In this document: one piece after another, positions 15,001-59,417 of the stretch
How the letters are laid out: every line of letters starts with the position of its first letter
How positions within the stretch are numbered: position 1 is the first letter of the stretch
Source of the DNA: Salvelinus alpinus
Taxonomy: Eukaryota > Chordata > Actinopteri > Salmoniformes > Salmonidae
NCBI RefSeq assembly: GCF_045679555.1
Contig: NC_092096.1
Location: 20,188,688-20,252,687, forward strand
Length of the DNA: 64,000 nt
Reading direction: 5' to 3'
The notes under the pieces: model-generated
Told to the model about the DNA's origin: nothing
The model's database searches: none
The model's input: the letters and a program-made list of their open reading frames with translations, nothing else
Translations under genes and position numbers: made by a program

Positions 15001-15943
15001 CAGTGACACTAGCAAGAGCAGTGATACTAGCAAGAGCAGTGATACTAGCCAGAGCAGTGACAGTGATACTAGCCAGAGCAGTGATACTAGCCAGAGCAGT
15101 GACACTAGCCAGAGCAGTGACAGTGATACTAGCATGAGCAGTGATACTAGCCAGAGCAGTGATACTAGCCAGAGCAGTGACAGTGATACTAGCAAGAGCA
15201 GTGACAGTGATACTAGAAAGAGCAGTGATACTAGCAAGAGCAGTGATACTAGCAAGAGCAGTGACACCAGCCAGAGCAGTGATACCATCCAGAGCAGTGA
15301 GTGATACTAGCAAGAGCAGTGATACTAGCCAGAGCAGTGATACTAGCCAGAGCAGTGATACTAGCCAGAGCAGTGATACTAGCAAGAGCAGTGATACTAG
15401 CCAGAGCAGTGATACTTGCCAGAGCAGTGACAGTGATACTAGCATGAGCAGTGACAGTGATACTATCAAAAGCAGTGATACTAGCCAGAGCAGTGACAGT
15501 GATACTAGCAAGAGCAGTGACACTAGCCAGAGTAGTGATACTAGCCAGAGTAGTGATACTAGCCAGAGCAGTGATACTAGCCAGAGCAGTGGCAGTGATA
15601 CTAGCCAGAGCAGTGGCAGTGATACTAGCCAGAGCAGTGATACTAGCCAGAGCAGTGGCAGTGATACTAGCCAGAGCAGTGACAGTGATACTAGCAATAG
15701 CAGTGATACTAGCCAGAGCAGTGATACTAGCCAGAGCAGTGACAGTGATACCATGCAGAGCAGTGGCAGTGAGAGTGATACTATCAAAAGCAGTGATACT
15801 AGCCAGAGCAGTGACAGTGATACTATCAAAAGCAGTGATACTAGCCAGAGCAGTGACAGTAATACTATCAAAAGCAGTGACACTGGGCAGAGCAGTGATA
15901 CTAGGCAGAGCAGTGACAGTGACACTAGCCAGAGCGATCTAAC
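1..15943 (+). repeat. Giant 18/24-bp tandem array (SSDTSQ / SSDSDTSQ)
   Basis: The whole stretch is built from an 18-bp unit (agcagtgatactagccag) and a 24-bp unit that adds agtgac. One plus-strand frame reads SSDTSQ and SSDSDTSQ, with the last residue varying Q, K, M or H. A second plus frame (AVILAR) and two minus frames (LASITA, WLVSLL) are also open, so ORFs of 600-2,250 codons arise on both strands. Higher-order structure is visible. A 4-bp GTGA duplication that makes SSE-stop recurs near 3200, 7206, 10432, 11887, 13672 and 15302. GGC-rich blocks (SSGSDTSQ x3-5) recur at 324, 1624, 4100, 5372, 5998, 8472, 9118 and 14745. The left end is outside the window. I see no introns, signal peptide or non-repetitive coding flank. 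It is most likely a minisatellite. A serine/aspartate-rich phosphoprotein exon (dentin-sialophosphoprotein-like) is the alternative but is weakened by the recurrent frameshift. Confidence 0.9.
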
Positions 15944-16483: not shown

Positions 16484-16823
16484 TGTCACGAACAGCGTCA
16501 GGGTGGAAATGACCGGACCAAGGTGCAGCGGTGTGAGCGTACATTTTCTTTTAATGTTATAAATGTCACCAACAAAACAAGAAACAACAGTGAAACTGAC
16601 TAGGGCTATACAAACAACTACCCACAACTAAGGTGGAAAAACAGGCTGCCTAAGTATGATTCCCAATCAGAGACAACGATAGACAGCTGTCCCTGATTGA
16701 GAACCATACCCGGCCAAAACATAGAAACAGAAAACATAGAAATAAACTAGAATGCCCACCCTAGTCACACTCTGGCCTAACCAAAATAGAGAATAAAAGC
16801 CTCTCTTTGGCCAGGGTGTGACA
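16484..16823 (-). mobile_element. Solo LTR, TSD CTTTG
   Basis: A 340-bp sequence with ends TGTCACG/CGTGACA sits between 5-bp direct repeats CTTTG (16479-16483 and 16824-16828). It is read on the minus strand, where its body (GGTGGGCATTCTAG, TCTCTGATTGGGAATCATA) resembles the LTR at 36148-36548. A minus-strand poly(A) signal ATTAAA (16555-16550) is followed by ATG at 16544-16542 and an open frame MYAHTAAPWS... to the LTR end. The absence of an internal region and second LTR indicates LTR-LTR recombination. Confidence 0.9.
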
Positions 16824-35639: not shown

Positions 35640-36615
35640 ATATAAGAGACTGTTAGATTGTTAATATTTTCTGGTTGTGTGATTAAGAAGAATTAGAATG
35701 AGGTCTTAAGTCTCGGGGATGTTTCTGTATCGTAGAGTTATGGTGAAGTAGAGAAAGGGGGATATTGCTTACTAGGGTGTGTGTGGTTTTGGGGAACTGT
35801 CTGTTAGTCAACCTGTGACTGGACACCACAGAGTTGCCCCATGGCCTAAACAGCTAGAAATAAGAGGAAGTGGAACCAACAGCGGTGTAGACAGTCAACA
35901 CTCCTGGGTCATCATTAACACAAGAGCACGTCCTTAATTAGGGGGAAAGGGTCGGTGGAAGCGCTGTGTCATGTTAGTGGTAAACCACTGTAGTATATAG
36001 CATATGTAGCAGGGCACTTTTACCAGAATAATTTTATTTAACTTTAAGTCACATGATTTTATGAGAAAACGTTTCTGCAGTGAGGGTGTGTAATGCAAGT
36101 CAAGGTGTCCTTGGATGGACTTGATGGACTTGAACAAGATGCATAACTGTCACGTTCACCATAGTTCTTGTGTGTTTTGCTTGTTTTAGTGTTGGTCAGG
36201 ACGTGAGCTGGGTGGGCATTCTATGTTGTGTGTCTAGTTTGTCTGTTTCTATGTTTGGCCTAATATGGTTCCCAATCAGAAGCAGGTGTTTTGTGTTGTC
36301 TCTGATTGGGAATCATATTTAGGTGGCTTGTTTTGTGTTGGGGATTGTGGGTGGTTGTTTTCTGTCTTTGTGTTTCTCTGCACCAGCTAAGACTGTATTG
36401 GTTTGCCACGTTTGTTATTTTGTTATTTGTAAGTATTCACATTTTCGTCTCGTCTATTAAATCATGTTGAACACAAGCTACGCTGCGTCTTGGTCCGATC
36501 CCTGCTACACCTCCTCTTCAGACGAAGAGGAGGAAGGCTGCCGTTACAATAACCAGCATTGTTAAAATAACTATTTTAATGAAATCTGAGCATACCTGTA
36601 AAAAACCACTGTAGT
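35640..36615 (+). repeat. Segmental duplication, copy 2, split by a solo LTR
   Basis: Matches 32845-33310 closely (GAGACTGTTAGA, GGGATATTGCTTACTAGGG, TCCTGGGTCATCATTAACA, TATAGCATATGTAG). It resumes after the LTR at 36554 with CAGCATTGTTAAAAT. Truncated after about 36615. Confidence 0.8.
36148..36548 (+). mobile_element. Solo LTR, TSD ATAAC
   Basis: A 401-bp LTR (TGTCACG...CCGTTACA) flanked by ATAAC at 36143-36147 and 36549-36553. Same family as the LTR at 48659-49037. A poly(A) signal ATTAAA at 36456-36461 is followed by ATG at 36464 and an open frame containing AASWSD and a serine/glutamate-rich run, leaving the LTR as ...CGT TAC A. The empty site is preserved in the paralogous block at 33291-33305. 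Confidence 0.93.
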
Positions 36616-37264: not shown

Positions 37265-39685
37265 TGTAACGGTCCTGACCTGTTTTATGTTGTTTTTGTA
37301 TGTGTTTATGGTCAGGGCGTGTGTTTTGGGTGGGCAGTCTATGTTTTCCGTATCTGTGTTATGTCTTGCACCATACGGGACTGTTCGGTTGTTCGTTTCG
37401 TTTCGATGTAGTCTGTTTCCTGTCCGTAAGTGTTACGTTTAGTTATGTAAGTTTATGTTCAGGTTTCGTCTACGTCGTTTTCTTGTTTTGTATTTTTGAA
37501 AGTGTTTTGTGTTTTCGTGTTGCCGTCGTTTCAAATAAAAGATGGCTTATTTCCCTAATGCTGCATTTTGGTCTGATGATCCTTCTCTCCTCTCCTCGTC
37601 CGAGGATGAGGAGAACGACAGCCGTGACAGAATCACCCACCAAACTAGGACCAAGCGGCAAGGGAGTGCTCAACAGAGCAACAAGGACTCCTGGACTTGG
37701 GAGGAGATCCTGGACGGTAGAGGACCCTGGGCTCAGCCAGGGGAATATCGCCGTCCCAAGGAGGAGTTGGAAGCAGCGAAGGCTGAGAGGCGCTGGTATG
37801 AGGAGGCAGCGCGGCGACGCGGTTGGGAGCCCGTGAGTCAGACCCAAAAATTTCTTGGGGGGGGCACACGAGGAGTGTGGCAAAGCCGGGTAGGATACCT
37901 GAGCCAACTCCCCGTGCTTACCGTGGAGGTAGAAGGCGTCGTACTGGTAAGACACCGTGTTATGCGGTAAAGCGCACGGTGTCCCCAGTACGCGTGCTTA
38001 GCCCAGTGCGGGCTATTCCACCTTGCCGCACTGGGAGGGCTAAGTTGGGCATCGAGCTGGATGTCATGAAGCCGGCCCAATGCATCTGGCCACCAGTGCG
38101 TCTCCTCGGGCCGGCATACATGGCACCAGCCTTACGAGTGGTGTCCCCGGTTTGCCAGTATAGCCCAGTGCGGGCTATTCCACCTCGCCGCACTGGCAGG
38201 GCTACGGGCACCATTCAACCTGGTAAGGTTGGGCAGGCTCGGTGCTCAAGAGCACGTGTCCTCCTTCACGGTCCGGTAGACCCGGTGCCACCTCCATGTA
38301 CCAGTCCTCCGGTGGCAGCCCCCCGTACCAGGCTGTCTCTCCGGGTTCTCTCTCCAGCTGTTTCCTCCTCTCCAGCGCAGCCAGTGCCTATACCACGCAC
38401 CAGGCTGTCTCTCCTTCTCCTTCTTACAGAGCCGTCCTGCCATGACCAGCCAGAGCCGTCCTGCCATGACCAGCCAGAGCCGTCCTGCCATGACCAGCCA
38501 GAGCCGTCCTGCCATGACCTGCCAGAGCCGTCCTGCCATGACCTGCCAGAGCCGTCCTGCCATGACCTGCCAGAGCCGTCCTGCCATGACCTGCCAGAGC
38601 CGTCCTGCCATGACCTGCCAGAGCCGTCCAGCCAGGACCCGCCAGAGCCGTCCAGCCAGGACCCGCCAGAGCCGTCCAGCCAGGACCCGCCAGAGCCGTC
38701 CAGCCAGGACCCGCCAGAGCCGTCCAGCCAGGACCTGCCAGAGCCGTCCAGCCAGGACCTGCCAGAGCCGTCCAGCCAGGACCTGCCAGAGTCCCTCAGC
38801 CAGGACCTGCCAGAGTCCCTCAGCCAGGACCTGCCAGAGTCCCTCAGCCAGGATCTGCCAGAGTATCTCAGCCGGGACCTGCCCCTTGTCCCGGTGCTGC
38901 CCCTTATCCCGGTGCTGCCCCTTATCCCGGTGCTGCCCCTTGTCCCGGTGCTGCCCCTTGTCCCGGTGTTGGTCCTTATCCCGGTGCTGGTCCTTATCCC
39001 GGTGCTGCCCCTTGTCCCGGTGCTGCCCCTTGTCCCGGTGCTGCCCCTTGTCCCGGTGCTACCCCTTGTCCCGGTGCTGCCCCTTGTCCCGGTGCTGCCC
39101 CTTGTCCCGGTGCTGCCCCTTCTCCCGGTGCTGGCCGTTCATTTAGGGGATGTTAGTTTTAGGGTGGTCATTGGGAGGGGAAGACAGAAGCGGGGAGTGA
39201 CTATGGTGGTGTGGGGACAGCGTCCAGAGCCTGAGCCACCACCGTGGTCAACTGCCCACCCAGACCCTCCCCTGGACTTTGTGCTGGTGCGCCCGGCGTT
39301 CGCACCTTGAGGGGGGGTTCTGTAACGGTCCTGACCTGTTTTATGTTGTTTTTGTATGTGTTTATGGTCAGGGCGTGTGTTTTGGGTGGGCAGTCTATGT
39401 TTTCCGTATCTGTGTTATGTCTTGCACCATACGGGACTGTTCGGTTGTTCGTTTCGTTTCGATGTAGTCTGTTTCCTGTCCGTAAGTGTTACGTTTAGTT
39501 ATGTAAGTTTATGTTCAGGTTTCGTCTACGTCGTTTTCTTGTTTTGTATTTTTGAAAGTGTTTTGTGTTTTCGTGTTGCCGTCGTTTCAAATAAAAGATG
39601 GCTTATTTCCCTAATGCTGCATTTTGGTCTGATGATCCTTCTCTCCTCTCCTCGTCCGAGGATGAGGAGAGCGACAGCCCTTACA
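37265..39685 (+). mobile_element. Non-autonomous LTR element, complete, TSD CTAAA
   Basis: Two nearly identical 365-bp LTRs (37265-37629, 39321-39685) enclose a 1.7-kb interior, and the element is flanked by CTAAA (37260-37264, 39686-39690). A G-run polypurine tract (39309-39317) lies directly before the 3' LTR. There is no TGG-type primer-binding site next to the 5' LTR; the interior starts GAATCACCCACCAA, as in the element at 56840. No reverse transcriptase, protease or integrase is encoded, so movement would depend on another element's enzymes. Near identity of the LTRs suggests a young insertion. Confidence 0.92.
37542..39310 (+). pseudogene. LTR-started proline-rich repeat protein, frameshifted
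   Basis: The start codon lies within the 5' LTR, three bases after AATAAA (37534-37539). The frame gives MAYFPNAAFWSDD, an acidic serine-rich run, then across the LTR border RITHQTRTK and a tryptophan/charge-rich domain (SWTWEEILDGRGPWAQPGEY, EELEAAKAERRWYEEAARR). At a GGGGGGGG run (37857-37864) the frame is lost relative to the intact relative at 57120. The rest of the protein continues in the next frame to 39310: PxxP-rich region, 24-bp repeats (8-residue DQPEPSCH / SSQDPPEP type), then 18-bp repeats ([12 protein letters not shown] type), and a conserved end (PEPEPPPW, HPDPPLDFVLVRPAFAP). I do not recognise it as any named Gag or enzyme. Role unknown. Confidence 0.75.
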
Positions 39686-39690
39686 CTAAA

Positions 39691-40228
39691 TGGTTACTGT
39701 TTGCAAATAATTTTATATTAGACATCCCTATGAATCTTATCATGGCACTTTCAAAAGTTACCTTCGCACCCAGACAGATCCTCGACCGAAGTAGAAACAT
39801 GTCAACTTCACCTGCTGGCTACTCAGAAGAGCTGCCCTAAAAGCTGCATGGATTTAAACATCTTCTCTTTTCAGAAAGTGAAAAGCTCAATTAATAGGGA
39901 CAGAATAGCAATGTCAATTTTTGTATTCTCGAATATTGAAGGCTTCACCTCAGATTCAGAATGTCATAGAGAATAATCAATATATCCCCGTATGCATCAG
40001 TCACATTTTTTGTGGTCATTTTAAAGATTATTTCTAGCATAAGGCATCACAGAGGTAAGTATTAATATAGAACACTTTATATTATCTGGATACTTTTTAT
40101 TTATTTATTAAGAACATAAAGCTATCTTTTTGCCCTTTTCATTAAAAAAAGGTACGGCATACCCTCACTCAATTTGAGCCCTGGTTTTAACCAAACCCAC
40201 CTTGCCCTTCCCAGACACAGAGGTATGT
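39691..40228. other. No feature recognised
   Basis: A+T-rich flank between the LTR element and the minisatellite. The frame from the 3' LTR start codon at 39598 runs into this flank for about 50 codons, which is only an accident of insertion. Confidence 0.4.
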
Positions 40229-41559
40229 AAGATGAGATGGGTTTAACAGTCTGATGGGGTTAGGATGGGTTAGACATTCTGATGGGGTTAAGATGAGATG
40301 GGTTTAACAGCCTGATGGGGTTAGGATGGGTTAGACATTCTGATGGGGTTAAGATGAGATGGGTTTTACAGTCTGATGGGGTTAGGATGAGATGGGTTTT
40401 ACAGTCTGGTGGGGTTAAGATGAGATGGGTTTCACAGTCTGATGGGGTTAGGATGAGATGGGTTTAACAGTCTGATGGGGTTAGGATGAGATGGGTTTTA
40501 CAGTCTGGTGGGGTTAAGATGAGATGGGTTTCACAGTCTGATGGGGTTAGGATGAGATGGGTTTAACAGTCTGATGGGGTTAGGATGAGATGGGTTTTAC
40601 AGTCTGGTGGGGTTAAGATGAGATGGGTTTTACAGTCTGGTGGGGTTAAGATGAGATGGGTTTAAACAACTGGAGCTATGATAGCCTGTTTAACCCCATC
40701 AGACTGTAAAACCCATCTCATCCTAACCCCACCAGACTGTAAAACCCATCTCATCCTAACCCCATCAGACTGTAAAACCCATCTCATCTTAACCCCACCA
40801 GACTGTAAAACCCATCTCATCTTAACCCCACCAGACTGTAAAACCCATCTCATCTTAACCCCATCAGACTGTAAAACCCATCTCATCTTAACCCCATCAG
40901 ACTGTTAAACCCATCTCATCTTAACCCCACCAGACTGTGAAACCCATCTCATCTTAACCCCATCAGACTGTAAAACCCATCTCATCTTAACCCCATCAGA
41001 CTGTAAAACCCATCTCATCCTAACCCCATCAGACTGTTAAACCCATCTCATCTTAACCCCATCAGAATGTCTAACCCATCCTAACCCCATCAGGCTGTTA
41101 AACCCATCTCATCTTAACCCCATCAGAATGTCTAACCCATCCTAACCCCATCAGACTGTAAAACCCATCTCATCCTAACCCCATCAGACTGTGAAACCCA
41201 TCTCATCTTAACCCCACCAGACTGTAAAACCCATCTCATCTTAACCCCATCAGAATGTCTAACCCATCCTAACCCCATCAGACTGTTAAACCCATCTCAT
41301 CCTAACCCCATCAGACTGTGAAACCCATCTCATCTTAACCCCATCAGACTGTTAAACCCATCTCATCCTAACCCCATCAGACTGTGAAACCCATCTCATC
41401 TTAACCCCATCAGACTGTAAAACCCATCTCATCTTAACCCCATCAGAATGTCTAACCCATCCTAACCCCATCAGACTGTTAAACCCATCTCATCCTAACC
41501 CCACCAGACTGTAAAACCCATCTCATCTTAACCCCATCAGAATGTCTAACCCATCCTAA
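40229..41559. repeat. Inverted 33-bp minisatellite (two opposed arms)
   Basis: Left arm 40229-40666 is a direct array of 33-bp units (TTAGGATGAGATGGGTTTTA + CAGTCTGATGGGG) with 28-bp variants. After a 21-bp spacer (40667-40687) the right arm 40688-41559 continues with the reverse complement of the same unit (CCCCATCAGACTGTAAAACC...). About 13 units face about 27. The arms could pair into a long stem, at unit-shifted registers. Read in one right-arm frame it gives TPSDCKTHLIL repeats, which is incidental. Confidence 0.95.
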
Positions 41560-48658: not shown

Positions 48659-49510
48659 TGTAACGGCTTCCTTCTGTGGACGAAGGAGAGGACCAAAGCG
48701 CAGCGCGGTTAGTGTTCAACATGTTTTAATAAAGACGATAAACGTGAACGCTACAAAATTACAAAACAACAAATGTGAAAAACCGAAACAGTCCTATCTG
48801 GTGCATAGACACAAAGACAGAAGACAACCACCCACAAAACCCAACACAAAACATGCTACCTAAATATGGCTCCCAATCAGAGACAAACGACTAACACCTG
48901 CCTCTGATTGGGAACCATATCAGGCCAAACACAGAAACAGGAAAACTAGACACACAACATAGAATGCCCACTCAGCTCACGTCCTGACCAACACTAAAAC
49001 AAAGAAAACACAAAAGAACTATGGTCAGAACGTGACAGTACCTCCCCCCCCCCCCAAGGTGCGGACTCTGGCCGCAAAACCTGAACCTATAGGGGAGGGT
49101 CTGGGTGGGCATCTGTCCGCGGTGGCGGCTCTGGCGCTGGACGTGGACCCCACTCCACCATTGTCTTTGTCCACCTCCTTAGCATCCCTTGAGTGGCGAC
49201 CCTCGCCGCCGACCTTGGCCTGGGAACCCTAACAAAGGGCCCCACTGGACTGAGGAGCGCCTCTGGACTGAGGAGCGCCTCAGGACTGAGGAAACTCCTC
49301 CGGACTGAGGGACAGCTCCGGACTGAGGGACAGCTCCAGACTGAGGGGCAGCTAATGACTGAGAGGTAGCTCATGACCGAGGGGTAGCTCATGACCGAGG
49401 GGTAGCTCATGACCGAGGGGTAGCTCACAACATAGAATGCCCACTCAGCTCACGTCCTGACCAACACTAAAACAAAGAAAACACAAAAGAACTATGGTCA
49501 GAACGTGACA
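48659..49510 (-). mobile_element. Internally deleted LTR element, TSD ATAAC
   Basis: Flanked by ATAAC at 48654-48658 and 49511-49515. On the minus strand the 3' LTR is 49037-48659 (379 bp, same family as the solo LTR at 36148). It is preceded by a long G-run polypurine tract (49042-49055). The interior (49426-49040) keeps only the end of the repeat protein: short YPSVMS-type and SPEALL-type repeats and a C-terminal WGPRPAPEPPPR...HPDPPL matching the proteins at 37542 and 57120. The 5' LTR is reduced to its first 84 bp (49510-49427), joined directly to the interior, so most of the 5' LTR and the first half of the ORF were deleted. The LTR carries the minus-strand leader frame MLNTNRAALWS starting at 48722. 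Confidence 0.9.
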
Positions 49511-49743
49511 ATAACATTATCATAATCTTTATTATTATTATGTTACATGCGAGACATACCCAGAAATGTCAACGTAGATAACTTACAAGAATGTGTTTAC
49601 CAGGCAGTGATGAAAACATTTTAAAGGAGCTCTAATTCAAACATGCAAAGATATATATTTGATACAATTACCCCCATTAAAACTGTTGTTACAATATCAC
49701 TTCTCATTGTGTACATTTCAAGGTTTCACATAACATAAAACAA

Positions 49744-50760
49744 CTATCTAAATAATGTTTCTCGGACTAACACACTGTTGAGTTTCCTATTTACTATAGA
49801 ACAATCATATTTCAGATTCAGGTTTACATACATCCATGACTGAACGGTTTCACAAACTCCTTTTAAAGGTTTTGTAAGTAAGCTGTAACAGGCCTCTTTC
49901 AGCAGTCTAGAGATTAACCTAGAGACACCAAAAACATCAATGTTTAGAGCAATTTGGAGATTATTCCCCATGTAAGGGGGGCAAAGAGCTGATTTACCTA
50001 ACTCTGTACAGACCAAAGGAATTTCCAGAGTTAGCATTCCCTGACACTGGGTATGATAACTCTGACGCGTACGTCTAATGATTATTGTAGATGTTAACAA
50101 CCGAGGGAGTTTACAGTAGTTCAAAGAGCTGTATAAAGGCAAAGAGAGCAACAAATTGACCTACGTGACCTCAAAGACGGACAGCCTACTTTATAATAGA
50201 GAATGCAAGGATGTGTACTGAACATGTACCCATTATAAAACAAAATGATCTATGGTCAAATGCATCTAAAGTTTTTAATGAAGTGTCCGCTGCATTCATA
50301 TAGATTATTTCAACATAGTCTAGAACCAGTAAGAACATAAATTGAATGATCTGCTTTGTACTATTGAGCAAGAGGCCTGACCTATTTCTATGTAAGAAGC
50401 CACATTTTTTATATTCAGATTCTTATTAACTGACTCATCAATATGTTTTTTAAAAGTCAGCTTAACGTCTATACTAATACAACATACTAGGTACATACAC
50501 TTCAATCATTAGAATATTTTTTGTACACTCGAGAAAACAACATATACTTAGTTTTACACGTATTCAATAATAATTTAAGATTAAAGATTTTATGCAAAAT
50601 AATGAAAGCATAATGTAGTTCAGATAGAGCACGATCAGCAGGGCGGACGATAGAGTACACAACTGTATCGTCGGCATGCCGGTGCAGGTAAAACTTTATT
50701 ATTATTATTATATTTATATATTTCTGACAAAATAATATTAATAATGTATACAATATATTT
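49744..50760 (-). pseudogene. Degenerate LINE reverse transcriptase
   Basis: Minus strand: the catalytic box HADDTVVYSIVRPADRALSE with NLKLLLNTCKTKYMLFSR (about 50690-50520), then KLTFKKHIDE (about 50460), and near the end CQGMLTLEIPLVCTELGKSA (about 50050). These are the conserved landmarks of an L2/CR1/Rex-type reverse transcriptase from the catalytic aspartates to the C-terminus. Stops and frame changes throughout; dead. Confidence 0.75.
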
Positions 50761-51030
50761 GTTTATTAGACATTCCAACATATAACACAATATCGAGATA
50801 CCAAAAAATGTATATGCACACAGTTTTAGAATATCTTGACAGAAACACTATTCAATCTCGGAGTTGTCCTTATCATGTTGTCTGTCCATTTCAAACAACC
50901 GCAAATCAACAACCCCCAAAATGTCATTTAAAGCGTGAAAATTATCAGAATTCATTGTTTTACTCGTTATGTTCCGGGGTACCCCTTCAGTCTCGACCAT
51001 ATCCTCTCGTGGTATAGGGCCTTCGGTGTC
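50761..51030. other. No feature recognised
   Basis: Short interval before the Gypsy LTR. Nothing supported. Confidence 0.4.
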
Positions 51031-51380
51031 TGTCACGACTTACGCCGAAGTCGGCCCTTCTCCTTGTTCGGGTGGTGTTCGGCGGTCGATGTCACCGGCT
51101 TTCTAGTCACCACCGATCCATGTTTCAGTTTCGTTTTGTTTTGTCTGTATTACACACACCTGGTTTCAATTCCCCTATCATGTTCCCTATTTAACCCTCT
51201 GGCATACATTTCTGTTCTGTCCGTGATTGTTTGTGTCGTTAGTGGTTGTTGTAGGTGCATGTGTGTTTGTTATTATTCCTATGTGGAATTTTGCTTGTAT
51301 TTTGAGTAAACTCCGTTGTTTTGCTCAACACCTGTGTCCTGCGCCTGACTCCGCTACATATCTGCACACAATCACTGACA
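51031..51380 (+). mobile_element. 5' LTR of a Ty3/Gypsy element
   Basis: Starts TGTCACGACTTACG and precedes a gag reading frame by a few tens of bases. The 3' border is not exact because the 3' LTR is missing. Unlike the LTRs at 36148, 37265, 48659 and 56840, it has no A-A-x-W-S leader frame, so it is a different type. Confidence 0.7.
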
Positions 51381-51398
51381 CAATCACAGACCTTTCAA

Positions 51399-52382
51399 AT
51401 GGAGTCAGCAGGTGCAGCCAGCCCTTCTCTCCCAGGAGAGGAGCGCGTCCAACAGCACACGACCATGTTACACAGTCTAGGGACAGCCATGGATTGCGTG
51501 CTGCAAACAATGGACAGATGGGAGAGAGGAGGTCTTCCGGTCAATCCTACCCCATCACCTCCGCCCGCACCTCAACCTACACTGATGTCCACCCTTCCAT
51601 CGTCAGGACCCAGTGGGATTTGGCTCTCGCTCCCAGGAGCGTATGACGGAACAGCTGCCGGGTGCCAGGGGTTCCTACTACAGCTGGAGCTCTACCTGGT
51701 GGCTGTTCAGCCGTCTCCTTCGGGACACGAGAAAGTGGGCGCCCTCATCTCCTGCCTGACTGGTAAAGCCCTGGAGTGGGCCAACGCCATCTGGGGAAGG
51801 GAAGGCCCAACTCTGGATGACTATGAGGACTTCTCTCGCCGCTTCCGGGCAGTCTTTGATCATCCACCTGAAGGGAGAGCGGCGGGAGAGCGATTGTTCC
51901 ATCTTAGACAGGGGATGAGGAGCGCTCAAGACTTCGCACTGGACTTCAGAACTCTGGCAGCTGGTGCGGGATGGAATGAGCGGGCCCTGATCGATCACTA
52001 CAGGTGTAGTTTACGAGAAGACGTTCGTAGGGAGCTAGCCTGCAGGGACACCACTCTCAACCTGGACCAGCTGGTGGACTTGTCTATCCGGCTGGATAAC
52101 CTGTTGGCCTCCCGCGGACGTCTAGATCGGGGTCCGCCCGTTCCATTACCCAGCACCTTGGATCCAACACCGATGGAGTTGGGAGGGGCTGCTATGAGGG
52201 GGACCGGAGGGGGGACCATTTCCTGCACCAACTGTGGCCGCAGAGGGCACACTGCTGGTCGGTGCTGGGGTGTTTCTTTAGGAAGTCGAGGTAGCAGGCG
52301 GAGCACTGGTGGGTCATCCCAGGTGAGTAGGCACACAACTCACCCAGAGCCCCCTGTTGCACACATGTGGTTACAAAAATAA
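51399..52382 (+). CDS. Ty3/Gypsy Gag (retrotransposon)
   Basis: An open frame of 327 codons from ATG 51399 (MESAGAASPS); an upstream in-frame ATG at 51321 is still within the LTR and unlikely. Landmarks: N-terminal coiled region, a capsid-like core of the fish Gypsy/Sushi type (LPGAYDGTAAGCQGFLLQLE, LISCLTGKALEWANAIW, HLRQGMRSAQDFALDFRTLA) and one CCHC zinc knuckle CTNCGRRGHTAGRC at 52223-52264. The frame ends at TAA 52380-52382. The protease frame continues in the same phase after this stop. The Gag looks intact although the rest of the element is damaged. Confidence 0.85.
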   Translation: MESAGAASPSLPGEERVQQHTTMLHSLGTAMDCVLQTMDRWERGGLPVNPTPSPPPAPQPTLMSTLPSSGPSGIWLSLPGAYDGTAAGCQGFLLQLELYLVAVQPSPSGHEKVGALISCLTGKALEWANAIWGREGPTLDDYEDFSRRFRAVFDHPPEGRAAGERLFHLRQGMRSAQDFALDFRTLAAGAGWNERALIDHYRCSLREDVRRELACRDTTLNLDQLVDLSIRLDNLLASRGRLDRGPPVPLPSTLDPTPMELGGAAMRGTGGGTISCTNCGRRGHTAGRCWGVSLGSRGSRRSTGGSSQVSRHTTHPEPPVAHMWLQK

Positions 52383-54758
52383 TTTCCTGAGTTTTCCCCG
52401 CATCCCCAGCATAAGGCGCTAGTAGATTCAGGCGCAGCTGGGAACTTTATTGACCGCTCCTTGGCACATAGATTAGGGATCCCTATTGTTCCTGTTGATG
52501 TTCCCTTCCCTGTACATGCCTTAGATAGTCGTCCTTTGGGGTCCGGGCTGATTGGGGAGGTCACAGTGCCCATCGCTATGAGAACGCAGGGGGATCACGA
52601 GGAGAGAATTAGTCTCTTCCTTATCGACTCTCCTGCGTTTCCTGTGGTGTTGGGTCTTCCCTGGTTGGCCTCTCATGATCTGATTATTTCGTGGCAACAG
52701 AGGGCTCTCAAGGGATGGTCCTGTCAGTGTTCAGGGAGGTGTGTAGGTTTTTCCTTAGGTGCCACTACGGTGGAAAGTCCAAACCAGGTTTCCACCATGC
52801 ACATTCTTCACATTTTTTTTTGTGAAGAAGAAGGATGGAGGTTTTTTGATTATCGAGGTTTAAATAAGATCACGGTAAAATACAGTTACCCGCTACCACT
52901 CATAGCCAGTATGACCGAGTCATTACACGGGGCGCGCTTTAAAAAAAAAATTGGACCTCAGGAGCGCTTACAACCTGGTGCGTATCAAGGCGGGAGATGA
53001 GTGGAAGACAGCATTTAGCACCACTTCTGGGCATTATGAGTACCTCGTCATGCTGTACGGGTTAATGAATGCTCCATCAGTCTTCCAATCCTTTGTAGAT
53101 GAGATTTTCAGCGACCTGCACGGGCAGGGTGTAGTGGTGTATATCGATGACATTCTAATATACTCCGCTACACTCGTCGAGCATGTGTCCCTAGTGCGCA
53201 GGGTCGAGCATGTGTCCCTATTGTCCCTAGTGCGCAGGGTGCTTGGTCGACTGTCCCTAGTGCGCAGGGTGCTTGGTCGACTGTTCTTCCAACAGTCCAT
53301 CTCCTTCCTAGGGTACCGCTTTTCAGCGTCAGGGGTAGAGATGGAGAATGACCGCATTTCAGCTGTGCGTAATTGGCCGACTCCAACCACGGTAAATGAG
53401 ATGCAGCGGTTTTTAGGGTTTGCCAACTACTACTGGAGATTTATCCGGGGTTTTGGTCAGGTAGCGGCTCCCATTACCTCACTGCTGAAGGGGGGACTGG
53501 TGCGACTGCAGTGGACAGCTGGGGCGGACAGGGCTTTTGGTCACCTGAAGGCTCTGTTTACCTCGGCTCCCGTGCTGGATCATCCTGATCCCTCCTTAGC
53601 ATTCATAGTTGAGGTGGACGCGTCCGAGGCGGGGATAGGGGCTGTGCTGTCTCAGCCCTCGGGTACGCCACTAAAGCTCCACCCCTGTGCATTCTTTTCG
53701 AAGAAGCTCAACCCGGCGGAGCGAAACTATGATGTGGGGGACCGGGAGTTGTTGGCTGTTGTTATGGCTCTGAAAGGGTGGAGACATTGGCTTGAGGGGG
53801 CTAGACACCCTTTTCTCATTTGGACTGACCACCGCAATCTGGAGTACATCCGGGCGGCGAGGAGAATGAACCCTCGCCAGGCAAGGTGGGCCATGTTTTT
53901 CACCCGTTTTGTTTTCACCTTTTCCTACAAACCAGGTTCCCAGAACGTTAAGGCAGACGCACTGTCCCGGCTGTATGATACAGAGGAGCGGTCCACAGAT
54001 CCCACTCCCATAATTCCAGCCTCTCGCCTGGTGGCACCGGTGGTGTGGGAGGTGGATGCGGACATCGTGCAGAGCCCACTCCACCTGACTGTCCAGCTGG
54101 GCGTCTGTACATTCCGTTTGATGTCCGTGATCGTTTGATCTGTTGGGCTCACACGTCACCCTCCTCTGGTCATCCTGGCATCGGTTGGACGGTGCGCTGC
54201 CTTGCTGGGAAGTACTGGTGGCCCACTTTAGCTAAGGACGTGAGGGTTTATGTTTCCTCCTGTTCGGTATGCGCACAGTGCAAGGCACCTAGACATCTGC
54301 CCAGAGGGAAATTACAACCCCTTCCTGTTCCACAGCGACCGTGTTCACACCTATCGGTGGATTTCGTGACGGATCTTCCCCCGTCGTGGGGTAACACCAC
54401 GATCCTGGTCGTTGTGGATTGGTTTTCTAAGTCCTGCCGTCTCCTTCCTTTGCCCGGTCTCCCTACGGCTCTACAAACTGCGGAGGCCCTGTTCACCCAC
54501 GTATTCCAGCACTACGGGGTGCCTGAGGATATAGTTTCTGATCGGGGTCCCCAATTTACGTCTAGAGTCTGGAGGGCGTTTATGGAACGCCTGGGGATCT
54601 CGGTCAGCCTTACCTCAGGTTTCCACCCCGAGAGTAACGGGCAGGTGGAAAGAGTCAACCAGGATGTGGGTAGGTTTCTGAGGTCCTATTGCCAGGACCG
54701 GCCGGAGGAGTATCAATATTTTCTTTCTTCAAAAAAGACAGTACCTTCTTCCTTTTAA
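52383..54758 (+). pseudogene. Ty3/Gypsy Pol, frameshifted and truncated
   Basis: Order of domains: aspartic protease (ALVDSGAAGNFID, 52411-), reverse transcriptase, RNase H and integrase. Damage seen: an in-frame stop separates it from Gag; sequence between protease and the RT start (FFDYRGLNKITVKY) is deleted; the frame is lost in an A-run at 52942-52951; the RT resumes at 52951 with the catalytic YIDD (about 53140). A block of short duplications follows the YIDD. RNase H is readable ([23 protein letters not shown]). Another frame change near 54070 leads to the integrase: zinc-binding H/H/C/C region ([16 protein letters not shown]) and the three acidic residues in [16 protein letters not shown] and [10 protein letters not shown]. 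The element stops at about 54742, with the integrase C-terminus and 3' LTR missing. Not functional. Confidence 0.9.
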
Positions 54759-54759
54759 T

Positions 54760-55379
54760 GGGATTATGGCTCCCTCTAATGTTCCATGTACATACACGCA
54801 GTGTGTTACCTGCCATTGCACTTTGACCGTTTCATACTCAGACTGAATCCCACTGTAAAAATGGGGTGGTACCTTTTTCCATGTGCTGAACTCTCTTCTA
54901 TCTCAACGAGCATAACCAAACGATATGAACCCTGAACTCTAACTATACTAAACCCCAAAATTAAACATGTAAAGATCCAAAAGGGGGTTTTCCCACTAGC
55001 TAACATGCAGGGGATTTTAACTTTCCAATGTAGACTCTTAAGTCTGCATTGCCATTCAATAGCCTCGTCCTTTATATATATGAAAATGAAAATCAATATA
55101 TGAAGATTGAGGCTCTTCCACCTAAAACCAAGCCCGGGCGCCAATATAGATTCACCCATGTCTCAGCCTGAGCTATAGCGGCAGTTACTTTAGCAAGAAA
55201 AAGACTAAAAATACAAATATTACTGAACCGGAGCATGTGCGAACTCACACCACTGTTTCCTGATCAGATTCAAATAAGATAATAAAGTTATCCAATGCTG
55301 CGGCGGCGCAGCTTAAAGTTATTTACCCGAGAGAGTCAATAAACGCAGCAGCCTCCTCAGGTGTGGAGAGTTTCTTAGG
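54760..55379. other. No feature recognised
   Basis: Sequence between the truncated Gypsy element and the L1-type ORF1. No supported gene; it does not look like an LTR. Confidence 0.4.
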
Positions 55380-56195
55380 CTATCCGTTGACCATAATCTT
55401 CAATGTGGCCGGGTACAACAGAGCGTAGTCCATCTTCATTCTCCTGAGTCGAGCCTTCGCCTCATCAAACCCGTTGCGTCTTCGTACAACCACTGTGGAA
55501 TAATCATTGAAGAATGAGACCTTTGGACCTTTACGTTGACTACCGTCAGAGCCGATGTTTCTAGCCGCATCCATAACGCGCTGCTTGTCGGTGAAGTTGT
55601 GGAACTTTATAACCACTGGCCGTGGGCGCTGGTTGGGACCGGGTATCGGTGCTTGAGAGCGATGGGCTCTGTCCAGCTTCACACGACCAGCCTTAGTGTC
55701 CATTTGTAAGTAGTCAGGGATCCATTCCTCAAAAAAATTTACTGAACGTGTCCCTTCAGAATTTTCCGGGAGTCACACAACACGAATATTGCATCTGTGT
55801 CCTCGATTATCCAAGTCGTCAATGTGCTCCGCCATTTCGTGCACCTGTTTCTCAAGTGCTTTCATCTTAGTGTCCATAGATGTAGTTGAAGATTCCACTG
55901 TAGCAATTCTTCCTTCCACCTCATCGACACGTTTGACCACCCTCTGTAACTCAGCTGAATGGCCTGCTATTGCTTCCAAGACCGTTCTTATCTTAACATC
56001 GATCACTTTAGTAATGTTGTCCGTCATCTTTTGAATCACCAGGTCCATTGTGCCTGGATCCGCAACGGTGTTAGCTTCGCTAACGTAAGCTAGCTCCTCC
56101 TGCACATCTACAGGGATGGTGGTTTTGGTCGAGTTCTTAGTAGCTCTGCTGGGCATGTTGTCGGAGATTTTTGAGAAATAACCGTCAAGACTCAT
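55380..56195 (-). pseudogene. L1/Tx1-type LINE ORF1 protein
   Basis: Minus strand from 56195: MSLDGYFSKISDNMPSRATK, a long heptad-rich segment (AELQRVVKRVDEVEGRIATV, MKALEKQVHEMAEHIDDLDN) typical of the L1 ORF1 coiled coil, and the start of the RRM (RGHRCNIRVV). One frame interruption occurs at about 55773-55700. The C-terminal half is then readable: LDRAHRSQAPIPG, RPRPVVIKFHNFTDKQRVMD, SFFNDYSTVVVRRR, ending KIMVNG at 55380. This protein binds LINE RNA in retrotransposition particles. The frameshift makes this copy inactive. Sequence just upstream (56200-56330, GGCGCCATTTTG) may be the element's 5' region. No ORF2 follows downstream. Confidence 0.8.
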
Positions 56196-56496
56196 TGCAG
56201 GATAACTTATTTAGCCAAGTCTACCACTTTTTCAAGCTAGAAGATTAATGAAAGAATATAAATTTACGAATGCCACGGGAGCTCGCTGGAACACAGTGTT
56301 CTCTCTACGGCGCCATTTTGTCCCCCTTCTGGAGTTTTCTTGAAGATCACTCCACGACACACACAATGCAGCACTGTCGTTCAGGCAGCAGATGATGCGC
56401 TGTCAGCCACTGACTTGTCATTCCCACTCGCCAAATGGACTCATGCTAGCAACAAGTTCTGACTGAGCTCAATCGTTATGAAAAGCCAATACACCG

Positions 56497-56834
56497 ATGA
56501 GTTTGTCTTTCATACAAACTTTGAGAATTAACGAGGAGCTCCCTCATTGTGTTTTGTGCGGGAAGTGCTTAGTAATGAGTCAACGACACATCCTGACCAA
56601 ACATCCACAGCATGACGGTATACACAGAGAATTCTTTCAGAACAGGGCAGAATGCTTCAGGAAACAGTGCTTCAACAGTGGAAAAGTAAATCAGCTAGCA
56701 AGGCATTGTTGTCATTTTATAAAAGGTGATGATAAGCAGAAATAAGGGAGTAACGTTACTATCTCATAATAGTATACGTGAGTTTCTCTTTCAAACAATC
56801 CCCTGGCCTTGTACACAGCTAATGGCTCAAATTC
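56497..56834 (+). pseudogene. hAT-type transposase, BED-finger piece
   Basis: A short frame (56497-56745) contains CVLCGKC...RHILTKHPQHDGIHREFFQ, the Cx2C...Hx4H pattern of a BED zinc finger followed by the usual KH-rich spacer. This is the N-terminal DNA-binding end of hAT/ZBED-like transposases. The start is frameshifted and the catalytic RNase H-like region is missing. The C-terminal piece of a hAT protein in the same orientation lies at 59599, on the other side of the inserted LTR element at 56840. Confidence 0.6.
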
Positions 56835-56839
56835 GCCAA

Positions 56840-59417
56840 TGTCACGCCCTGGCCTTAGTATTATTTGTTTTCTTTATTATTTTAGTTAGGTCAGGGTGTG
56901 ACATGGGGAATGTTTGTGTTTTATCGGTTTTGGGTGGTTATATGGTAAAGGGGTTGTTGGGTGTAGTGTATGGGTTTGTGTTGAGTGCATGTGCCTAGCT
57001 GTGTCTATGTTATACGTTTGTAGCCTGTGTGTGCACTTCGTTCATAGCTTCACGATCGTTTTCTTGTTTTGTTTAGTGTGTAAGTGTTTTTGTTTCGTTT
57101 TGCCTTCGTCATCAAATAAATGAAGATGGCTTATTTTCCTCATGCTGCGTGTTGGTCCGTCTCTCCTCCACACGATCGTGACAGAATTACCCACCAATAC
57201 AGGACCAAGCGGCATGTAAAGCGGAAACAGGACCCACCTACACAGGATTCTTGGACATGGGAGGAGATACTGGATGGTAAGGGGCCGTGGGCACAACCGG
57301 GAGAATATCGCCTCCCTCGTGAAGAGCTGGAGGCAGCGAAAGCCGAGAGGAGGCGATATAAGGAGGCAGCACGGAAGCAAGGCTGGAGACCCATGAGTAA
57401 TACCCAAAAATTTCTTGGGGAGGGGCTCATGGGGAGTGTGGCGAGTCCAGATGGGAGAACTACGTCAACTTCCCGTGCTACCCGTGAGGACTCTAAGAGG
57501 GAACCTGAGCCAGTCGGGCTGATATTGGAGGTGAGCAATGGGAATGATACAGAGACTGTTAAGGATTTATTGGGGAGGTTGGAAGAGAGTGAAATGAGGG
57601 AGCTGCTGTGTTGGTGCGTGAGGCACAAGATCCACCCGACAGAGCGTGTGCGGGATGTGAGGTTACCTGAGTCAGCTCTCCATGCTCGTCCTGATGTGCG
57701 TGCTAACCGTCTGGGAATGACAGTCCCACGAACCAGGCCTCCTGTACGCCTCCCTAGTCCTGCACCTCCTATATTAGCCCCACGTACTAACTCTCCTGTG
57801 ACAGTCCCCAGCCCAGTACAACCAGTGCCTCCTCCACGCACTAGCCCTATGGTGCGTGTCTCCAGCCCTTTACCACCAGTGCCTAAATCACGCACCAAGC
57901 CTCCTGTGTGTCCCCAGAGTCCTGTGCGTCCTGTTGCTGCTCCCCGCACTAGCGCTGAGATGCGTGTTCCCAGCCCGGTACCACCAGTTCCGGCACCACG
58001 CACTAGGCCTAATGTGCGCTCCCAGGGTCCAGTATGCCCTGTTCCTTCTCCCCGCACTAGCCCTGAGATGCGTGTCCCCAGCCCGGTATCACCAGTTCCG
58101 GCACCACGCACCAGGCCTACAGTGCGCCTCAGCCGGTCAGAGTCTGCCGTCTGCACAGCGATGCCTGAACTGCCCGTCTACCCAGCGCCATCTGAGCCAT
58201 CCGTCTACCCAGCGCCATCTGAGCCATCCGTCTACCCAGCGCCATCTGAGCCATCCGTCTGCCCCGAGCCATTAGAGCCGCCCGTCTGTCCCGAGCCGTC
58301 AGAGCCGTTCGTCAGTCAGGAGCCGCTAGAGCCATTCGTCAGACAGGATCTGCCAGAGCCGCCAACCAGACAGGATCTGCCAGAGCCGCCAACCAGACAG
58401 GATCTGCCAGAGCCGCCAACCAGACAGGATCTGCCAGAGCCGCCAACCAGACAGGATCTGCCAGAGCCGCCAACCAGACAGGAGCAGCCAGATCCGTCAG
58501 CCAGCCATGAGCAGCCAGATCCGTCAGCCAGCCATGAGCAGCCAGATCCGTCAGCCAGCCATGAGCAGCCAGATCCGTCAGCCAGCCATGAGCAGCCAGA
58601 TCCGTCAGCCAGCCATGAGCAGCCAGATCCGTCAGCCAGCCATGAGCAGCCAGATCCGTCAGCCAGCCATGGGCCGTCCCTCAGTCCGGAGCTGCCGTCC
58701 CTCAGTCCGGAGCTGCAGTCCCTCAGTCCGGAGCTGCCCCTTATCCTGGTGCTGCCCCTTATCCTGGTGCTGCCCCTTATCCAGGTACTGTCCCTTAGTC
58801 CGGAGCTGCCCCTTAGTTCAGAGCTGCCCCTTAGTCCGGAGCTGCCCCTTAGTCCGGAGCTGCCCCTTAGTCCGGAACTGCCCCTTAATTCAGTGGGGTT
58901 AATGTGGAGGGGGGTCATTTGGAGGAAGCTACGGAGGCGGTTAGTGACTGTGGTGGGGTGGGGACCACGACCAGTGCCGGAGCCGCCACCGTGGAAGGAA
59001 GCCCACCCAGACCCTCCCCTAGACTGTGTGCTGGTGCGCCCGGAGTTCGCACCTTAAGGGGGGGGTTATGTCACGCCCTGGCCTTAGTATTATTTGTTTT
59101 CTTTATTATTTTAGTTAGGTCAGGGTGTGACATGGGGAATGTTTGTGTTTTATCGGTTTTGGGTGGTTATATGGTAAAGGGGTTGTTGGGTGTAGTGTAT
59201 GGGTTTGTGTTGAGTGCATGTGCCTAGCTGTGTCTATGTTATATTAAACGTTTGTAGCCTGTGTGTGCACTTCGTTCATAGCTTCACGATCGTTTTCTTG
59301 TTTTGTTTAGTGTGTAAGTGTTTTTGTTTCGTTTTGCCTTCGTCATCAAATAAATGAAGATGGCTTATTTTCCTCATGCTGCGTGTTGGTCCGTCTCTCC
59401 TCCACACGATCGTGACA
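56840..59417 (+). mobile_element. Non-autonomous LTR element, complete and young, TSD GCCAA
   Basis: 5' LTR 56840-57183 (344 bp) and 3' LTR 59069-59417 (349 bp) differ mainly by a 5-bp TTAAA-type insertion. Direct repeats GCCAA occur at 56835-56839 and 59418-59422. Polypurine tract AAGGGGGGGGG at 59056-59065. The interior begins GAATTACCCACCAA, as in the element at 37265, without a TGG primer-binding site. The interior holds one uninterrupted ORF and no pol genes. Confidence 0.95.
57120..59057 (+). CDS. LTR-started proline-rich repeat protein, intact, 645 aa
   Basis: The ATG at 57120 overlaps the poly(A) signal (AATAAATG); a second ATG at 57126 aligns with the start of the relative at 37542. 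The first ~21 residues (MAYFPHAACWS) are LTR-encoded. Residues ~40-100 form a tryptophan- and charge-rich domain (SWTWEEILDGKGPWAQPGEY, EELEAAKAERRRYKEAARK); ~145-175 a likely helix (VKDLLGRLEESEMRELLCWC); ~190-390 a PxxP-rich region with repeated PAPRTRP-like phrases. Then come 9-residue repeats (YPAPSEPSV x4, QDLPEPPTR x5, EQPDPSASH x7), 6-residue SPELPL repeats and a conserved end (HPDPPLDCVLVRPEFAP) just before the polypurine tract. No protease, RT, integrase, zinc knuckle or signal peptide is visible. It could be a Gag-like or RNA-binding packaging protein; this is inference. A closely related but frameshifted copy is at 37542-39310. Confidence 0.8.
   Translation: MKMAYFPHAACWSVSPPHDRDRITHQYRTKRHVKRKQDPPTQDSWTWEEILDGKGPWAQPGEYRLPREELEAAKAERRRYKEAARKQGWRPMSNTQKFLGEGLMGSVASPDGRTTSTSRATREDSKREPEPVGLILEVSNGNDTETVKDLLGRLEESEMRELLCWCVRHKIHPTERVRDVRLPESALHARPDVRANRLGMTVPRTRPPVRLPSPAPPILAPRTNSPVTVPSPVQPVPPPRTSPMVRVSSPLPPVPKSRTKPPVCPQSPVRPVAAPRTSAEMRVPSPVPPVPAPRTRPNVRSQGPVCPVPSPRTSPEMRVPSPVSPVPAPRTRPTVRLSRSESAVCTAMPELPVYPAPSEPSVYPAPSEPSVYPAPSEPSVCPEPLEPPVCPEPSEPFVSQEPLEPFVRQDLPEPPTRQDLPEPPTRQDLPEPPTRQDLPEPPTRQDLPEPPTRQEQPDPSASHEQPDPSASHEQPDPSASHEQPDPSASHEQPDPSASHEQPDPSASHEQPDPSASHGPSLSPELPSLSPELQSLSPELPLILVLPLILVLPLIQVLSLSPELPLSSELPLSPELPLSPELPLSPELPLNSVGLMWRGVIWRKLRRRLVTVVGWGPRPVPEPPPWKEAHPDPPLDCVLVRPEFAP

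Follow-up and report, generated by a model that had tools for sequence, protein, structure and literature searches.

The DNA analysed here, referred to as the window, is a 64,000 nt stretch of Salvelinus alpinus contig NC_092096.1 (positions 20,188,688 to 20,252,687). It carries five long terminal repeats (LTRs), termed a to e, whose ends appear to hold two kinds of information at once. We propose, with a probability of roughly 0.83, that these LTRs belong to pol-less LTR retrotransposons in which a self-priming RNA pseudoknot of the Tf1/sushi type overlaps an open reading frame (ORF) that begins inside the LTR. The open frame, the two duplexes of the pseudoknot and the covariation of both duplexes can be read directly from the sequences.

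According to this model, the elements would form a single superfamily whose sole ORF begins within the 5′ LTR, and the same LTR end would double as part of the RNA structure used for self-priming. In the families termed a-like, c-like and d-like, the RNA is predicted to begin 31 nt after a TATA-like box, and its 5′ end would bear a 10 nt self-primer for the primer-binding site (PBS). A sequence of the form GCTGC-NNN-TTGGTCY just inside the LTR (termed the box) would pair with a second arm located just past the PBS. With the self-primer paired to the site and the box to a sequence past it, the duplexes cross each other, and the predicted product is an H-type pseudoknot of the Tf1 ‘pretzel’ kind. 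The peptide A-A-x-W-S, which is encoded near the end of each LTR, would be the in-frame reading of the LTR arm of the helix. From these features we infer where transcription starts, that translation begins at the LTR ATG, and that self-priming takes place.

An earlier examination of the window (termed the sequence-only reading) had located the five LTRs and noted in each an ATG after the poly(A) signal, with ATG-to-LTR-end lengths that all equal 1 modulo 3. Re-reading confirmed these coordinates, strands, start codons and lengths, and each LTR has a 5 bp target-site duplication (TSD).

16484-16823, minus strand: solo LTR a (TSD CAAAG)
36148-36548, plus strand: solo LTR b (TSD ATAAC)
37265-37629, plus strand: 5′ LTR of element c (TSD CTAAA), without the TATA/self-primer segment found in other c-like copies
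39321-39685, plus strand: 3′ LTR of element c, 99.2% identical to the 5′ LTR
48659-49037, minus strand: LTR d (TSD GTTAT)
56840-57183, plus strand: 5′ LTR of element e (344 nt; TSD GCCAA), 98.6% identical to the 3′ LTR
59058-59068, plus strand: G-rich tract preceding the 3′ LTR of e, as read from the sequence
59069-59417, plus strand: 3′ LTR of element e, the pair of the 5′ LTR

Elements c (37265-39685) and e (56840-59417) each have the paired LTRs, 5 bp TSD and purine tract of an LTR retrotransposon. LTR d belongs to a truncated, internally deleted copy (49510-48659), and what is left of its interior matches the 3′ portion of the e ORF.

Several other features of these elements were seen along the way. 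The LTR starts (the first ~75 nt, e.g. 56840-56903) are repeated in inverted form ~50-60 nt further in, as judged by eye, and this inverted repeat (TGTCACG..CTGACC / GGTCAG..CGTGA) could form a hairpin right after the G-rich tract. Tandem repeats of 18, 21, 24, 27 and 108 nt occupy the interiors of c (38427-39133) and e (57813-58887). They differ between c and e in unit and number, marking a fast-changing middle region that is proline-rich in e.

The comparisons that follow draw on copies taken from the window's own assembly (2.37 Gb). Searches with the LTRs yielded first-look candidates numbering 3664 for e, 3327 for c, 4682 for d and 3578 for a. These sets may overlap, 40 candidates from each were scored, and the families look abundant in the genome. 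A total of 94 partial copies were fetched, comprising 20 e-like, 20 c-like, 20 d-like and 34 a-like sequences.

In all five window LTRs, the poly(A) signal has a start codon no more than about 12 bases away, and the frame from there is open to the LTR end. The distances from ATG to LTR end in a, b, c, d and e are 61, 85, 88, 64 and 58 nt, respectively, such that every frame exits the LTR in the same phase.

16484-16544, minus strand: LTR-encoded leader of a; where a-like copies are in phase and have an interior, their ORF is of the same family
36464-36548, plus strand: LTR-encoded leader of b, window copy only
37542-37629, plus strand: LTR-encoded leader of c (88 nt)
48659-48722, minus strand: LTR-encoded leader of d; where d-like copies have an interior, their ORF is of the same family
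57126-57183, plus strand: LTR-encoded ORF start of e (58 nt), with an alternative in-frame ATG at 57120
57126-59057, plus strand: single ORF of e, across the LTR/interior junction, with no Pfam match above the cut-off

The second in-frame ATG of e lies 6 nt upstream of 57126, and the LTR-encoded segment is 64 nt long if it is used. From 57120, the e frame continues from LTR to interior as a single ORF of 645 codons that ends at 59057, 11 nt short of the 3′ LTR. On mononucleotide shuffling, an open in-phase frame of this kind arises in 7-9% of trials per LTR. Because the five LTRs share descent, their five open frames are not five independent events.

Among the fetched copies, the frame is in phase and open in 88 of 94 LTRs (57/60 of the c-, d- and e-like and 31/34 of the a-like). 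Six copies are exceptions: L039, L072 and L077 have out-of-phase lengths, L069 has a stop codon in the box, L097 has no box, and L038 was counted as an exception after being scored with an LTR end 5 nt too short; the primer count and the 44-copy count below use its corrected end. The leader of L039, a c-like copy, is 83 nt long. Among the length variants of a-like copies, 58 nt (six copies), 52 nt and 49 nt (one each) are in phase, and 60 nt and 57 nt (one each) are out of phase. Moreover, 26 of 27 interior-bearing copies, namely those among 42 whose LTR end matched the search pattern, are open for at least 85 codons from the LTR ATG. The remaining copy, L039, is frameshifted and was dropped from this set, leaving 26.

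In-phase a-, c-, d- and e-like copies with an interior lead into one pol-less ORF family, which has R/K-T/I-K-R/Q and usually WTWE(E/D) further on. The ORF is broken later in some copies (e.g. L054, L063, L087). In the first 68 aligned interior codons of c and e, the nonsynonymous rate (dN) is 0.19 and the synonymous rate (dS) is 2.0, with 13, 12 and 33 differences at codon positions 1, 2 and 3, and we therefore conclude that a protein has been maintained. These sequences support an element protein whose N-terminus would be encoded by the LTR. No pol domain was found in the element. Three pieces of the e ORF gave no Pfam match above the cut-off; a single match at E 0.11 is spurious. An AlphaFold2 model of the first 225 ORF residues, built from a two-row alignment, had a mean pLDDT of 47 and was set aside.

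The sequence-only reading had gone further, and proposed that a protein with an LTR-encoded N-terminus is maintained across families. The frame itself bears this out, but such protein constraint is not supported as the cause of the A-A-x-W-S conservation. Specifically, parsimony changes in the LTR part of the ORF of 26 copies fall 19/24/26 on codon positions 1/2/3, so that the third position does not exceed its one-third share (p 0.26). In the same copies the remaining interior has 68/75/130 changes, a marked third-position excess (p=7e-7). When d-like copies are added, the counts become 30/33/41 for the LTR part and 113/115/187 for the interior. The LTR part is near-even across codon positions, although its third-position share and that of the interior do not differ significantly (Fisher p 0.18). 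The near-even distribution indicates that the leader amino acids are at most weakly constrained, and brings them close to equal conservation at all three positions, the pattern that the sequence-only reading had itself set against a protein explanation. What is kept is the start, the phase and the openness of the frame.

The rival view that A-A-x-W-S is a conserved N-terminal motif, acting for example in targeting or capsid assembly, with the base pairing described below as a side effect, is unlikely on these data. It gains from the c-e leader comparison, in which dN is 0.20 and dS is 0.92 and only 0.9% of relocations give as few amino acid changes. It also gains from the Trp codon, which is kept in 30 of 31 aligned copies, and from leader lengths that are in phase nearly everywhere. 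The near-even codon positions speak against it, as do the a-b and a-d leaders, where dN is about equal to or above dS. In addition, codon x of the motif varies at positions 1 and 2 but never at position 3 among the 31 copies. Within the five window LTRs, codon x likewise varies at its first two positions and always ends in T. The Ala and Ser codons had been described as varying at third positions, and they do so only within limits: the first Ala codon is always GCT, the second is GCA or GCG, and Ser is TCC or TCT.

The acidic stretch SSSDEEEE in the b and c leaders was not counted towards codon constraint, since its nucleotides also make up an inverted repeat (judged by eye), and the b-c values (dN 0.35, dS 0.94) were for this reason not used. 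These inverted repeats lie between the box and the LTR end at 36511-36532 in b and 37592-37613 in c, where the in-frame reading is SSSDEEEE / SSSEDEE, and perhaps form a second small hairpin in the leader.

The pattern of conservation within the box fits an RNA helix. The box is the most conserved 15-column window in the alignment of the five LTRs, and its only variable nucleotides are the three of a bulge and a C/T at the last base. Pairwise identity is 97% (116/120) for the helix nucleotides and 33% (10/30) for the bulge nucleotides, compared with 40% and 43% for the leader on either side. The LTR arm, GCTGC-RNN-TTGGTCY, pairs with the interior sequence (G/A)GA(C/T)CAAGC(G/A)GC to form a 13 bp helix with a 3 nt bulge, which is closed by a GGACCAAGCGGC-type sequence shortly past the LTR end.

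57144-57158, plus strand: box of e, GCTGC-GTG-TTGGTCC (A-A-C-W-S), the LTR arm of the helix
57202-57216, plus strand: interior helix arm of e
37560-37574, plus strand: box of c, GCTGC-ATT-TTGGTCT
37648-37660, plus strand: interior helix arm of c
16515-16529, minus strand: box of a
36482-36496, plus strand: box of b
48690-48704, minus strand: box of d

This helix is present in the minimum-energy fold of c and in the centroid folds of c and e. The centroid fold of a Ty3-type gag/pol element elsewhere in the window (termed the 51031 element) has an analogous bulged helix. When RNAalifold was applied to 23 distinct copies trimmed to this region, it returned exactly these 13 pairs and nothing else, and the helix had not been supplied as input. 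Among 28 distinct c-, d- and e-like copies, 363 of 364 cells of the pairing table are paired, as against 23-45% in slid controls. Changes on both sides of a pair account for 12 cells, compared with 4.4 in shuffles, and none of 500 shuffles scored as high. The alignments, A6 and A7, omit identical copies and some interior-bearing ones whose LTR end escaped the search pattern (e.g. L017, L020, L030, L047).

A broader count gave 567 of 572 cells paired in 44 copies of four families, with the five exceptions lying in L050, L083 and L087. These 44 are the copies, among 96 (the 94 fetched plus c and e), that have GAAC or GAAT after the LTR; the others were taken as solo or 3′ LTRs, and L050, which has a box mismatch, was retained. 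The interior arm is also informative. Its codons show 12 changes, every one at position 1 or 2 and not one at position 3, which is opposite to the expectation under protein constraint. Those changes that fall in the helix keep their pairs while altering amino acids (T/I, R/K, R/Q), which likewise argues against the peptide as the conserved entity. On these findings, A-A-x-W-S is best understood as the trace that a priming RNA helix leaves when it is translated in frame, and not mainly as a peptide signal. A conserved RNA signal was the alternative that the sequence-only reading had offered, and the box behaves as one. The open frame and the RNA signal coexist in the LTR end.

Evidence for the second duplex comes from the a-, c- and d-like families, in which the PBS starts at the second base past the LTR. 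In these families a self-primer located 31 nt after the start of a TATA-like box forms 10 bp with the PBS and covaries with it.

16615-16625, minus strand: self-primer of a, GTGGGTAGTTG, 31 nt after the start of TACTTAGG
36347-36357, plus strand: self-primer-like GTGGGTGGTTG in b, with TATTTAGG starting 31 nt before it
48825-48835, minus strand: self-primer GTGGGTGGTTG in d, with TATTTAGG starting 31 nt before it
37631-37640, plus strand: PBS of c, AATCACCCAC, the same in 14/14 other interior-bearing c-like copies, where it forms 10 bp with their self-primer
57185-57194, plus strand: putative PBS position in e, AATTACCCAC, by analogy with the a-, c- and d-like families

In full-length c-like LTRs, TATTTAGG starts 31 nt ahead of GTGGGTGATTG, whose first 10 bases are complementary to AATCACCCAC. 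In d-like copies, the self-primer GTGGGTGGTTG faces the site AACCACCCAC. All 140 cells in the 14 c-like copies and all 50 in the 5 d-like copies are Watson-Crick pairs; in the 6 a-like copies 52 of 60 are, and 2 more are G-U. The primer is found at this distance from the TATA-like box in 19 of 19 c- and d-like copies examined, in a, b and d of the window, and in the 51031 element. For two c-like copies, 43 and 34 of 2000 shuffled sites matched the primer score, which no interior 12-mer of L034 reached among the 668 examined.

Main primer and site show zero mismatches within each family. When primers and sites are exchanged between a- and c-like families, each crossing gains one mismatch, and two of the four gain a wobble as well; the d primer gains one wobble with each foreign site. 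That a family swap always introduces a wobble or mismatch was counted in favour of covariation of the self-primer duplex. Furthermore, the site expected for a-like elements, GAACTACCCAC, was written down from GTGGGTAGTTG of the a LTR before any a-like interior had been fetched. It was then found exactly in five of the six a-like copies with an interior, the sixth, L077, being without it. Descent alone, in which recently shared LTR ends would keep box and frame without selection, is in keeping with the youth of many copies and the common ancestry of the LTRs. It is largely contradicted already by the covariation of both duplexes, by the successful site prediction, and by the excess identity of the box over the leader around it, and we consider it extremely improbable.

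A number of observations weigh against the proposed self-priming pseudoknot. With regard to the bulged helix, most pairs are invariant in the 28 copies, and neither the number of pairs with both-sided change (2) nor that of further pair types (6) exceeds shuffles (453/500 as high). Kinship among copies can also beat shuffles without any structure. Adding three outer pairs lowers pairing to 91.3%, and arms in the 44-copy count were positioned where they best fitted their own pattern, a procedure biased towards pairing, with identical copies included. Single-sequence fold stability is ordinary for e (z 0.02) and the 51031 element (z -0.72), with only c unusual (z -2.73). A free duplex search in c favoured another pairing (76% of shuffles as good), and the same search in e was marginal (10% of shuffles; 2.3% with both sides shuffled).

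Further points concern the self-primer. A TATA-like box was seen in 0 of 18 e-like copies counted, the reported element included. A primer was sought in 8 e-like copies, where the best candidate forms 9 bp including wobbles, and shuffled sites equalled the e-like score in 332-1235 of 2000 trials in the three copies tested. The e-like family, including the locus reported here, has the helix but no convincing self-primer. Element c is also without a self-primer, yet its two LTRs show that it has transposed.

The TATA box and self-primer segment are missing from both c LTRs (37265-37629 and 39321-39685, each 365 nt). This deletion was probably inherited through a transposition.

These gaps lend some weight to a rival in which the frame and helix are as described, but a tRNA or other primer is used in some families and the helix serves packaging, dimerisation or translation control. 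We regard this as rather doubtful, though far from negligible. Besides the lack of a self-primer in e-like copies and c, which is in its favour, it has to accommodate the common geometry of the self-primer, 31 nt from the TATA-like box, in three families and the 51031 element. Also, TGG is absent from the 12 nt that follow the LTR in those a-, c-, d- and e-like copies whose interiors were examined, although no tRNA comparison was run.

If the self-priming pseudoknot is correct, the overlap of frame and helix might act as a switch, with each RNA molecule either translated or folded for self-primed reverse transcription. This either/or fate would arise because a ribosome starting at the LTR ATG must unwind both the box/arm helix and the PBS duplex. 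We offer this extension tentatively and hold it possible at best. If true, it would constitute an RNA checkpoint within a coding leader, in an abundant animal family with a conserved pol-less protein of unknown type. More generally, self-priming and an LTR-initiated ORF would coincide in one stretch of an animal element, where natural covariation provides a test of structure. The same stretch illustrates how what looks like a protein motif can in fact be an RNA signal that is read in frame. In addition, this non-autonomous element carries an ORF that evolves under purifying selection and has no Pfam family.

Other parts of the window hold repeats of different kinds. Positions 1-15916 form a 16 kb minisatellite of 18 and 24 nt units (a 42 nt higher unit, about 384 copies). 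Both of its strands have very long open frames, and one frame reads as SSDSDT-type repeats. At 40228-41555, two facing arrays of one 33 nt unit make a large, near-perfect inverted repeat. An Rfam scan of the window gave no match at gathering scores. One protein query and one pattern revealed no relatives in viral contigs, and the same pattern had one match (L001) among genome contigs.

A neighbour for comparison is the 51031 element.

51031-51380, plus strand: presumed 5′ LTR of the gag/pol Ty3-type element, with its end judged by eye; primer and fold analyses used 51381

This element (51031-54758) has gag, protease, reverse transcriptase, RNase H and integrase matches in several frames, and no second LTR was seen within 49400-57000. 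It carries GTCCGTGATTG 31 nt after its TATA-like box together with a near-complementary site, and so resembles the pol-less elements in its self-primer as well as in its LTR-interior helix. It differs in belonging to another family, in its primer and box sequences, and in its gag ATG, the first of which in frame was seen at 51399, outside the LTR.

TR-GAG elements are non-autonomous LTR elements. The elements described here resemble these and TRIM elements in having two LTRs, a polypurine tract and a short pol-less interior (for TRIM, see PMC6934838 and PMC4558846). They differ in their long ORF, which gave no Pfam gag match to make it recognisable as Gag. The 645 codons of the e ORF also contrast with the TRIM of PMC4558846, for which that paper reports no ORF over 120 codons.

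The GAG start codon of yeast Ty1 lies within its LTR. The LTR-initiated ORF that is continuous into the interior therefore has a precedent in organisation, not in membership, for Ty1 belongs to the Pseudoviridae, is primed by initiator tRNA-Met and is autonomous. According to PMC9503155 and PMC4974528, the Ty1 pseudoknot pairs nt 1-7 with 264-270 and 256-262 with 319-325, an H-type structure with the same crossing topology as that proposed here.

Vertebrate members of the self-priming group were reportedly described by Butler et al. in 2001. In searches of open-licence literature, no title or opening of an abstract among those listed gives an account of this family or of an LTR-initiated ORF in fish elements. 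In Tf1/sushi self-priming, as PMC10085805 presents it, the RNA bears at its 5′ end a self-primer for a site directly past the LTR, with which it pairs, and in the Tf1 ‘pretzel’ the sequence adjacent to the PBS pairs with the LTR downstream of the self-primer. Two of the three duplexes described there have been identified here, one of them a flanking duplex with support. The a-, c- and d-like copies share with Tf1/sushi, by sequence, the 10 bp complementarity between the RNA 5′ end and the region after the LTR, and the e-like copies do not. The present elements differ from Tf1/sushi in being without pol and in including a family, the e-like, without a clear self-primer. They differ also in the course of the ORF, which from its start in the LTR passes through the LTR arm, the PBS and the interior arm, so that both arms of the helix are coding.

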